This document shows, piece after piece, positions 1,321 through 32,081 of a stretch of DNA of 64,000 nucleotides. The stretch covers positions 1-64,000 of the forward strand of contig JAGYIG010000008.1 in NCBI GenBank assembly GCA_018402455.1, in the 5' to 3' direction. The position numbers and the translations under genes were made by a program. Every line of letters begins with the position of its first letter. Positions within the stretch are counted from its first letter, which is position 1. The notes under the pieces are model-generated. The model saw only the letters and a list, made by a program, of their open reading frames with translations. It did no database searches and had not been told where the DNA came from. This DNA comes from Opitutaceae bacterium (GTDB taxonomy: Bacteria > Verrucomicrobiota > Verrucomicrobiia > Opitutales > Opitutaceae).

Positions 1321-1677
1321 GGGGGTGTTCTGGATTCGACCCTTGGTTGGATTGTCTCGCTGCCGGTCGAGGATGAAGGATCCTCGTTAATCCCCTTCAA
1401 AACACAATAAATGGCACCTACGAAGAAATGCCCCTCGCTGCTTAAATAACGCAGTGACGATCGCCCAGTGACGCCTGATAGCTGACGTGATCGCCGACTT
1501 CAGGCATAGCGCATTCTGCGACCCGCGGAGTTTGCGCCGTATCTTCGACCCGGGGGTTGGGAGTTGGTTTGGCCGGGTTCATCGCCTGCTGACTCCGAGA
1601 TTAAATTGAACCTATACCGGTAGATGCGTTGCGAGAAGGTCAGGGGGACGCGGGTTCAATTCCCGCCACCTCCACCA
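1321..1677 (+). ncRNA. ssrA: Transfer-messenger RNA (tmRNA)
   Basis: This is a one-piece tmRNA of about 357 nucleotides, which rescues stalled ribosomes with SmpB. The 5' end (1321) begins GGGGGTG and pairs over seven positions with CACCTCC just before the 3' ACCA (one G-U), forming the acceptor stem. The 5' part carries the typical TTCTGGATTCGAC, and the 3' end has the T-arm GGGTTCAATTCCCGCC. The tag frame ends at TAA 1443-1445 and reads NGTYEEMPLAA, possibly starting at 1401 as NTINGTYEEMPLAA; the resume codon is uncertain. The terminal Leu-Ala-Ala is the usual protease degron. The rest of the molecule is the pseudoknot region. Confidence 0.96.
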
Positions 1678-13768: not shown

Positions 13769-15160
13769 TTAAAACGCCGCATTACCCGGCGTGCGGGCAA
13801 ACGGGATCACATCGCGAATGTTGGCCATGCCGGTCACGAACATGAGCATACGCTCGAAGCCCAACCCAAAGCCCGCGTGCGGCACACTGCCGTAGCGCCG
13901 GAGATCGAGATACCACCCGTAGTCGGCTTTGCTTAAACCGTGGCGCTCCATGTTGGCTTCGAGCACGTCCAGTCGTTCCTCGCGCTGACTGCCTCCCACG
14001 ATCTCGCCAATACCCGGCACCAGCACGTCCATCGCGGTGACGGTTTTCTGGTCATCATTGAGCCGCATGTAGAACGGCTTAATCTCCTTCGGGTAGTTGT
14101 AGACCGTCACCGGGCACTTGCAGTGCTCCTCCGCCAAATACCGTTCGTGCTCGGACTGGAGATTGTCGCCCCATTTCACCGGATGCTCCCAGGCTTTGCC
14201 GCTGGCTTCGATGATCGCGATGGCCTCGGTGTAACTCACCCGCTGGAAGGGGCGCTCCAAGACGAAGGCCAGACGCTCATCCAGCCCCTTGTCCACAAAC
14301 TTACCGAATAACGCCAGGTCGTCCGCACAGTGCTCCCGCACGTCCGCAATGAGGTATTTCACAAACTCCTCCGCCAGGTCCATGTTGCCGACCAGATCAG
14401 TGAAGGCCATCTCCGGCTCAATCATCCAAAACTCGCTCGCATGGCGCGAGGTGTTGGAATTCTCCGCGCGGAAGGTGGGACCAAAGGTGTAAACCTTGCC
14501 CATGGCACAGGCGAACACCTCCGCCTCCAACTGACCCGAAACCGTCAGGTAAGTCGGCCGGGCGAAGAAATCCTGACCATAATCGACGGCGCCGTCTTCC
14601 GTCTTGGGTGGATTCAACGGGTCCAAGGTCGAAACCCGAAACAACTCACCGGCGCCTTCGCAATCGCTCGCGGTGATCAGGGGCGTGTGCACGTAAACGA
14701 AACCCCGATCCTGATAAAACTGATGCACCGCGTAGGCCAGCCGACTCCGCACCCGAAAGACCGCACCAAAGAGATTCGCGCGTGGCCGCAGGTGGGCAAT
14801 CTCCCGCAGGAACTCCATGGAATGCCCCTTCTTTTGTAACGGGTAAGTTGCATCGGCTTTGCCCACCACGGTGAGCTCGCTGGCCTTTACCTCCCAGGTT
14901 TGGCCCTGGCCCTTCGATGCCACCAACTCCCCGGTTACGGCCAGCGCCGCGCCGGTGGTGATTTGCGGCATCAGTTCCGCATAACCCGGCAGCGTCGCAT
15001 CGGCGATCACCTGGAGATTCTTCAAACTCGAGCCATCGTTGAGCTCAATAAAGGAGAACGCCTTGCTGTCGCGCCGCGTGCGCACCCAGCCGTTGACCAG
15101 AATTTCCGGTGCCGGTGCGGCCGCCCGCAGGGCGTCTTTGACGGAAGTCGCTTTTAACAT
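13769..15160 (-). CDS. asnS: Asparagine--tRNA ligase
   Basis: 463 residues from the ATG at 15160; a TTG four codons upstream is possible. The N-terminal OB-fold anticodon domain has [20 protein letters not shown] and [12 protein letters not shown]. The class II catalytic core contains motif 2 ([16 protein letters not shown], typical of AsnRS and AspRS) and motif 3 [15 protein letters not shown]. It ends with [16 protein letters not shown], a hallmark of AsnRS. It charges tRNA-Asn in the cytoplasm, so this organism has direct asparaginylation. GGAGGG lies about 13 bases before the ATG. It is divergent from yqhD with a 29-bp dyad between them. Confidence 0.97.
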
Positions 15161-15222: not shown

Positions 15223-15251
15223 AAAAGTGTCACCATTATGGTTACACTTTT
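15223..15251. promoter_or_regulatory. 29-bp near-perfect dyad, putative repressor or activator operator
   Basis: The arms 15223-15236 and 15238-15251 around T15237 match at 13 of 14 positions; the only mismatch is C15231 against T15243. The half site is AAAAGTGT-n-ACCAT. It lies 78 bases before the yqhD start and 62 bases before the asnS start on the other strand. This looks like a dimer binding site. E. coli yqhD is controlled by an AraC-type protein; here the symmetry fits better a homodimer such as HxlR, MarR or TetR type (inference). No regulator gene is in the neighbourhood. Confidence 0.7.
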
Positions 15252-15329: not shown

Positions 15330-16487
15330 ATGGATAATTTCACGTTTCACAATCCCACCCGCATTCACTTCGGCAAAGGCCAGATCGAAAAGGTCGGCTC
15401 CGAGATCCCGGCATCTGCCACCGTGCTCCTCCTCGCCGGCGGCGGCTCGATCAAGGCCAACGGGGTCTATGATCAGGTCACGGCTGCGCTCGCGGGCCGG
15501 ACGGTGCATGAGCACTGGGGGGTAGAGGCCAACCCCGACTTCGATACGCTCCTGCCTGCGGTCGAGCTGTGCCGGACCGAAAAAATCGATTGGGTGCTAG
15601 CCGTGGGCGGTGGGTCCGTGCTCGACGGAGCGAAGTTTGTTTGCGCCGCCGTCAACTACGAGGGTGATCCGTGGCAAATCCTGCAAGACCAAGGAGCGTC
15701 CGTCACTTCGGCGCTGCCCTTGGGCACGGTGCTCACCCTTCCTGCCACCGGCTCCGAAGCCAATGGGGCATCCGTGATCAGCCGCCGGAAGCACAAGGCC
15801 AAACTCCATTTCATCAGCCCGTTGGTTTATCCCCGGTTTTCGATTCTCGATCCCGAAACCACCTTCACCCTGCCTCCGCGCCAGATCGCGAATGGGATCG
15901 GTGACGCGTTTTGCCATGTCGTCGAGCAATACCTGACCTTTCCCGCCCGCGCCGCCGTCCAGGACGAATTCGCCGAGTCGATTCTGCGCGTGTTGATCAA
16001 GGAAGGGCCGCAGACGCTGGCCCATCCCACCGACTACGATGCCCGCGCCAATCTGGTCTGGGGCGCCACCTGTGCCCTGCAGGGCATGATTGGGGTCGGG
16101 GTGCCCCAAGACTGGTCCACTCACATGATTGGGCATGAGCTCACCGCCCTCCACGGCATCGATCACGCCCGCACATTGGCCATCGTCCTGCCGGCGCTGC
16201 TCGAAGCCCAACGCGGCACCAAGTCCGGCAAGCTGCTGCAATACGCCGAACGCGTCTGGGGGATCTCCATCGGCGACGACGAATCGCGCATCACGGCCGC
16301 GATTGAAAAAACGCGCGAGTTTTACGAGGCCATCGGCATCCCGACCCGTTTGCATGATTACGACGTGTCCGCCGATGTTGCGCCGCAGGTCGCCGCTCGC
16401 TTGGCCGCCCGAGGCATGACGGCCATCGGCGAACATCAGGATCTGACTCCCGATCGGATCGAGGCGATCCTGCGCGCCGCGGCTTGA
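15330..16487 (+). CDS. yqhD: NADPH-dependent aldehyde reductase / iron-containing alcohol dehydrogenase
   Basis: 385 residues, almost exactly the length of E. coli YqhD. The start MDNFTFHNPTRIHFGKGQ is characteristic. GGGS at 93-96 binds the nucleotide. TGSEANGASVISRR, NGIGDAFCHVVEQYLTF and HMIGHELTALHGIDHARTL carry the metal ligands and are near-identical in layout to YqhD. It reduces toxic aldehydes (acrolein, methylglyoxal, furfural, malondialdehyde) using NADPH in the cytoplasm; this activity is known for the family. A GGGAG eight bases before the ATG supports the start. It is probably controlled through the dyad at 15223-15251. Confidence 0.95.
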   Translation: MDNFTFHNPTRIHFGKGQIEKVGSEIPASATVLLLAGGGSIKANGVYDQVTAALAGRTVHEHWGVEANPDFDTLLPAVELCRTEKIDWVLAVGGGSVLDGAKFVCAAVNYEGDPWQILQDQGASVTSALPLGTVLTLPATGSEANGASVISRRKHKAKLHFISPLVYPRFSILDPETTFTLPPRQIANGIGDAFCHVVEQYLTFPARAAVQDEFAESILRVLIKEGPQTLAHPTDYDARANLVWGATCALQGMIGVGVPQDWSTHMIGHELTALHGIDHARTLAIVLPALLEAQRGTKSGKLLQYAERVWGISIGDDESRITAAIEKTREFYEAIGIPTRLHDYDVSADVAPQVAARLAARGMTAIGEHQDLTPDRIEAILRAAA

Positions 16488-31158: not shown

Positions 31159-32081
31159 TTTCTGTGCCTCCAAAGATAGACCCGAACCGATCTTTCATTT
31201 CCCATGTTGAGCTCCCGCGCGATCCACTTGATCGGCACCCCGAGCTCCCGCTGCAGCCGCTCGGCCACCGCAATTTTCCAGGGCGCACTTTTTCGGTCTG
31301 ATTCCAAGTCCGTGGGAGACTTGCCTTCATCAGCCAGTTCCTGCTTTAGCTGGAATTTCCACTTGGCCTCGAGCAAATCCGAGCTCCATCCAACCCTCCC
31401 ACGTTCGCCTTCTCTGAGCTTGTCGGGCAGATGATGCGCCAACGTGGACTCCTTCCACTCGCTCGAGCCAAGCGCCCATCCGGTGGTCATTTTTTTGTGC
31501 TCCAACTGGGCGATTTCAGGAGCAATCTTCGCCCGCCTTAAAAGGCGACTGGCATAGCTGGTCCAGCCCTCTGCGGAATCTTCCAAACCGATTGCTTGCA
31601 TCCACTCAAGTGAACTCAACCCATTAAATCGCTGATTCTTATAAAATCGATTGAGGCTGCTCCACCGGAAATGTGCGAGTTGATCTGCTTTGACCAGTCC
31701 GGCCCTGAAAGGGTTGAGGTGGATGTAATCGACCACGCGGGCAAGATCCATCCCCCGTTCCAGTAGAAGTGCCTTGTATCTGCCTTGAAAGAGATGGCCG
31801 TTCTCTTTCCGCATGCGATTGAAGCGGGTGGCGAAAGTGGACTGGAGCCAGTGCATTCCGGCCGCGAGATTGGGCTCAGGGGTGTGTAACGCCAAATGAT
31901 AGTGGTTTCGCATCACCACATAGGCAGCCAACCGCCATCCGTAGCGATCCACTGCTTCCTCCAGCGCAGCAACGAACGCTTGGGCTGACCCCGCCTCGGC
32001 AAAAACATCGCGCTTATAGTTGCCCCGATTAATCACGTGATACTTAGCTCCGGGGTATTGGATTCTGAGTGACCTAGGCAT
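31146..32081 (-). CDS. IS200-like Y1 transposase, REP-associated (RAYT)
   Basis: 311 residues from the ATG at 32081 (MPRSLRIQYPGAKYHVINRG). That opening is the signature of the REP-associated tyrosine transposases. The HUH motif is His60-Tyr-His62 (MRNHYHLALH) and the probable catalytic Tyr is Tyr119 in VVDYIHLNPFRAGL. GHLFQGRYKALLLE follows the family. The C-terminus LGVPIKWIARELNMGNERSV reads as a helix-turn-helix. Upstream in-frame codons to 32399 run through the right repeat and rluA and are not part of it. It catalyses single-strand hairpin-directed cutting and joining in known relatives. Confidence 0.92.
   Translation of the reverse strand: MPRSLRIQYPGAKYHVINRGNYKRDVFAEAGSAQAFVAALEEAVDRYGWRLAAYVVMRNHYHLALHTPEPNLAAGMHWLQSTFATRFNRMRKENGHLFQGRYKALLLERGMDLARVVDYIHLNPFRAGLVKADQLAHFRWSSLNRFYKNQRFNGLSSLEWMQAIGLEDSAEGWTSYASRLLRRAKIAPEIAQLEHKKMTTGWALGSSEWKESTLAHHLPDKLREGERGRVGWSSDLLEAKWKFQLKQELADEGKSPTDLESDRKSAPWKIAVAERLQRELGVPIKWIARELNMGNERSVRVYLWRHRKINN

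Follow-up and report, generated by a model that had tools for sequence, protein, structure and literature searches.

Results

A near-perfect palindrome separates asnS and yqhD

A palindrome of 29 bp lies between two divergent genes in the window, by which we mean the whole 64-kb stretch of DNA analysed. It belongs to what we call type I, defined by a 23-bp core with an AT-only centre; a sister type II carries a TAWTA centre. The gene names below are those of the initial annotation, and both open reading frames were confirmed.

13769 to 15160, minus strand: asnS, asparaginyl-tRNA synthetase, divergent neighbour of the palindrome
15223 to 15251, no strand: window copy of the type I palindrome, with the 23-bp core at 15226 to 15248 and complementary AAA/TTT flanks
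15330 to 16487, plus strand: yqhD-type alcohol dehydrogenase gene, the other neighbour of the palindrome

The sequence at 15223-15251 is AAAAGTGT-C-ACCAT-T-ATGGT-T-ACACTTTT, in which 13 of the 14 arm positions are paired about a single centre base, exactly as the initial annotation described. Its coordinates also agree with the distance given there of 78 bases to the yqhD start (15330), and the asnS start (15160, minus strand) is 62 bp away on the other side. The single arm mismatch is explained by the hybrid nature of the window copy, whose left arm is of the C-type usual in this genome (G000) and whose right arm is of the A-type used everywhere in the congener G001.

Palindromes reaching 13 of 14 occur twice in the window, against 0.06 expected from an order-1 Markov simulation. 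A cruder symmetry score returns three palindromes and three mirror-repeat controls, so that symmetry alone is just moderately unusual; the reality of the dyad is decided by its multiplicity in the genome, where the reversed-pattern control gives a single match. The earlier proposal that the symmetry is not accidental is borne out. Folded as RNA, the dyad has an energy of -11.2 kcal/mol (z -5.1). Neither a sigma-70-like promoter nor an intrinsic terminator was matched at the dyad, and an Rfam scan of the window retrieved a tmRNA gene elsewhere (1321-1677, plus strand) and no other match.

The dyad is one member of a dispersed repeat family

A 21-bp search with the core AGTGTCACCATWATGGTGACACT found about 11 copies at nine loci of G000, the reversed pattern giving 1. 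GTGTCACCATWATGGTGACAC and its close variants are located at C10, C11 (two copies), C15, C20, C29, C46, C69 (three type I copies falling within 170 bp) and C79, which is the window. The near-identical copies adjoin recQ/AlkZ, dusA, cysS, ndk/WYL, SRAP and an MFS gene, and copies are found between convergent genes and inside the coding sequences of EamA and 3beta-HSD. Two further low-mismatch in-gene matches, C20:28409 and C90:80922, were dropped as copies because the orthologous coding positions of G004 match too, and we take them as conserved-protein coincidences. The type II palindrome GTAACCTAATAGGTTAC is also present in G000, at C1, C8, C13, C28, C68 and C90, and two of its copies are C/A hybrids, as is the window copy of type I. 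A DNA uptake signal was ruled out, since the half-site ATGGTGACAC occurs 25 times and mostly within the palindromes.

Each genome carries its own version

Within the genus, G000 was compared with seven congeners, G001 to G007, all of which hold type I and/or type II palindromes, with up to 57 copies. The symmetric versions differ by genome: GTGTAACC...GGTTACAC in G001, TTTGTCACC...GGTGACAAA in G006 and TTTAACC...GGTTAAA, the TTAACC version being limited to G004, G005 and G007. Likewise GTGTCACC and GTGTAACC are versions from different species. G001 contains about 43 copies of GTGTAACCATWATGGTTACAC, and a single 23-bp core, the strand of the centre base aside, accounts for 37 of the 43 copies at fetched loci. 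The majority of the 57 matches in G006 have the TTTGTCACC...GGTGACAAA form; G002 has 16 matches. Copies of TTAACCANNNTGGTTAA number 23 in G004, 26 in G005 and 6 in G007, with none in the other five genomes. Type II varies too, as GTCACCTAATAGGTGAC in G001, GTCACGTAWTACGTGAC in G003 and G007, and GTAACCTAATAGGTTAC in G000.

Across 84,980 species genomes, from which records of the window's own genome were possibly excluded, exact TGTCACCATWATGGTGACA was found in two Opitutaceae MAGs and as one isolated match elsewhere. Many Opitutaceae genera show strong enrichment of the TAWTA pattern (for instance 64 against 0 and 36 against 0 in controls), and no such enrichment was seen in the rest of the phylum. 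A literature search on palindromic repeats in Opitutaceae or Verrucomicrobia, judged mostly by title, gave no description of this family.

Copies are retained at shared positions and also turn over

The genes beside the G000 copies were mapped onto the seven congeners and compared with the palindrome coordinates. All seven have a yqhD orthologue and six keep the divergent asnS-yqhD order. A copy lies in this space in six of the eight genomes, namely G000, G001, G002, G004, G005 (two copies) and G007 (three, imperfect), so that the same dyad does recur upstream of yqhD in close relatives, as the initial annotation had proposed to check; the spaces of G003 and G006 have no copy. In G007 (L126) the centres of the imperfect type I copies are 62 and 43 bp apart.

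Copies recur among the congeners at Vut_1/MFS, DCC1/dusA, recQ/AlkZ, SRAP and ndk/WYL, upstream of cysS, and likewise inside 3beta-HSD and EamA. By our own count, 6 of the nine G000 loci recur in G001, 6 in G002, 7 in G004, 8 in G005 and 6 in G006, where chance would give fewer than one, as estimated from a few dozen loci among thousands of intergenic spaces. Upstream of dusA, G001, G002, G004, G005 and G006 have two copies about 395-412 bp apart. The reverse mapping of G006 loci onto G005, G001 and G003 had a mixed outcome, with several loci shared and several lacking a type I copy: the L179 locus is shared with G001, G003 and G005, and that of L172 with G005 and, as type II, with G001, while at many other loci the gene pair is adjacent in G005 yet lacks a type I copy. 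The shared loci together with these gene pairs indicate both long retention and turnover. The two types also replace each other at a given locus, as at recQ and in 3beta-HSD; the latter gene holds a type I palindrome in G000, G001 and G005 and a type II palindrome in G002, G003 and G004.

Copies are indifferent to gene orientation and some lie within reading frames

Gene orientation around the copies was obtained with a simple codon-based gene caller made for this analysis. The genes on either side may be tandem, divergent or convergent, certain copies are in-gene, and the neighbours are of mixed function; the copies are thus not confined to the promoters of a coherent gene set. The copies of G001 look spread over the whole chromosome with no evident ori/ter bias, as judged by eye from their positions. 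Between tandem genes of G006 the copies tend to lie closer to the stop of the upstream gene. A T or A tract accompanies 1 of 89 copies, which does not correspond to the hairpin followed by a T tract that an intrinsic terminator has at gene ends, and the conserved copies between divergent genes also count against terminators.

The in-gene copies, a minority, share one reading frame and encode the peptide C-[NH]-H-x-G-[YD]-T in variable linkers. The EamA copy reads CHHIGDT in G000 and CNHNGYT in G001, both arms having changed to each genome's own version. The EamA loop is of similar length with and without a copy, so insertion there is only a possibility. In the 3beta-HSD copy of G005 (L148) the symmetry is broken at one base, where perfection would produce an in-frame TAA stop.

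The family is dispersed, specific in sequence to each genome, largely shared in position and independent of gene orientation.

Flanks tend to be complementary and neighbouring copies appear phased

Beyond the core, the flanks continue to pair over mean runs of 3.8 positions in G001 (2.5 when shuffled), 3.8 in G006 (1.8) and 4.4 in G000 (2.5), each value exceeding all 1000 shuffles; in G002, G004 and G005, with few copies, the flanks lean toward pairing within the range of the shuffles. Such paired flanks suggest a hairpin constraint or a template-switch correction of the palindrome.

The centre-to-centre distances between neighbouring copies cluster near 46, 57, 67, 78, 89 and 100 bp, and the spacer sequences are unrelated. 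A post hoc test on 35 distances, which had been seen beforehand and include some from orthologous loci and one from a tandem duplication, gives a phase concentration R of 0.51 at periods of 10.2-11.0 bp (p about 0.001 with uniform as well as smoothed nulls); the helical period has a physical motivation. Restricting the distances to 80 bp or less gives a best period of 10.7 bp (R 0.62). At L061 and L063 (G001) and L229 (G003), segments of 90, 124 and about 270 bp are duplicated in tandem, with one palindrome per unit.

No link to REP transposases was found

Y1_Tnp (RAYT-like) genes are common in Opitutaceae, with 14 matches in G000; the one in the window (31719-32048, minus strand) has no strong palindrome beside it. 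As short palindromic repeats in many dispersed copies, type I and type II resemble RAYT-associated REPs, whose copies however flank a cognate Y1 transposase, and neither type was found within about 1.5 kb of the Y1_Tnp genes at 30 fetched loci, a subset of the total. Nor is there an excess of the characteristic tag: of 89 copies, 4 have GTAG nearby and 10 have CGTC, where 7.0 and 17.5 would be expected. In G024 and G042 PF01797 was not detected, yet samples of about 220 and 310 kb respectively contain the palindromes. The link was rejected on the basis of the empty flanks of the Y1_Tnp genes and of these genomes.

Discussion

The nearest described phenomena are the GTAG REPs of Opitutus terrae, intragenic ones included, in a study of GTAG/CGTC-tagged REP families that mentions untagged REP-like repeats too (PMC3733652), and the palindromes found in frame within Rickettsia genes (PMC10969869). 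As in REP repeats, we find short palindromes in tens of copies with several families per genome, arranged singly and in clusters, chiefly intergenic and partly in coding sequence. Unlike REP repeats, the Opitutaceae palindromes have no tag and no RAYT neighbour, are almost perfectly symmetric about an AT-only centre, share positions between species while their sequence changes in concert, and are helically phased in their spacing. The Rickettsia palindromic elements (RPE; PMC10969869) resemble them in lying in frame within unrelated genes, but measure about 150 bp, whereas ours measure 23-37 bp and are mostly intergenic.

Viewed as sites, the palindromes invite another comparison. Noc, SlmA and MatP are chromosome-organising systems in which a dedicated dimeric protein occupies tens of short, symmetric, dispersed sites; related species conserve these sites, whose distribution is biased by region. 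The Opitutaceae palindromes are similar as tens of short symmetric sites over the chromosome, in and between genes, but they differ by species and, in G001, look by eye to be spread chromosome-wide.

Taken together, the helical phasing, the homogeneity within a genome and the coordinated change lead us to infer that these untagged REP-like palindromes are DNA sites of dedicated, co-evolving, putative binding proteins, a reading to which we assign a probability of about 0.47. Each palindrome type would then be the recognition site of one dedicated symmetric (dimeric) protein, which would occupy one face of the helix at neighbouring copies, and a shift of its specificity in a lineage would carry all the sites along in both arms. 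Its role would probably be architectural or genome-wide, rather than the control of a single promoter. This fits poorly with the complementary flanks, since binding to a duplex does not require them, with a turnover like that of a mobile element, and with the mutual replacement of types I and II at the same locus.

It is on the flanks and the turnover between species that the main rival does better. A selfish REP-like hairpin, spread and overwritten by a transposase or a hairpin-processing enzyme that keeps the genome homogeneous, would be tolerated in intergenic spaces and coding linkers; its copies (11-57 per genome) would be uniform and blind to gene orientation, its flanks would lengthen the hairpin, and its in-frame copies in coding linkers would have parallels in the O. 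terrae REPs (PMC3733652) and the Rickettsia elements (PMC10969869). We consider this explanation possible but less likely than protein sites, as the copies have neither the GTAG/CGTC tag nor a RAYT gene beside them, palindromes occur where PF01797 is undetected, and mobility does not predict shared positions in diverged species or helical phasing. A hairpin acting at the RNA level, as terminator, protector of mRNA ends or RNA-binding site, would account for the stable fold of the window dyad, the flank complementarity and the position of the G006 tandem-pair copies; it is nevertheless improbable given the near absence of T or A tracts, the copies between divergent genes (that of the window among them), the uniformity of the stem within a genome and the helical phasing.

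The initial annotation had read the dyad as a site from which a dimeric regulator would control yqhD; such a local operator might serve yqhD, asnS or both. The distances to both starts and the presence of a copy there in six of eight genomes agree with such an operator, but copies also lie between convergent genes and within coding sequence, their neighbours are of mixed function, they show nearly no degeneracy and the dyad has no sigma-70-like promoter match beside it, which makes a local yqhD operator very unlikely. Many copies unrelated to regulators are precisely what was named as evidence against a private operator. Moreover, the HxlR, MarR or TetR regulator suggested finds no candidate gene among the ten annotated neighbouring proteins, of which the sole regulator is a WYL protein at a convergent locus. 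A sequence-specific dimeric DNA-binding protein is still a good explanation; aldehyde-responsive control of yqhD is left without support. At asnS-yqhD, the copy may have an incidental effect on the divergent promoters.

A lone perfect dyad before a gene should accordingly be called that gene's operator only with caution. For the family, protein recognition of the palindromes could amount to an Opitutaceae-wide system with at least two orthogonal site types per genome, each served by a fast-diverging putative DNA-binding protein, in which many positions stay fixed and sequences change together even within genes; we put this forward tentatively, as a conjecture drawn from comparative sequence data. 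Helical phasing, AT-only centres and coding copies offer sharp predictions, and the coordinated change at shared positions makes selfish hairpins and host-maintained, co-evolving protein sites experimentally separable.
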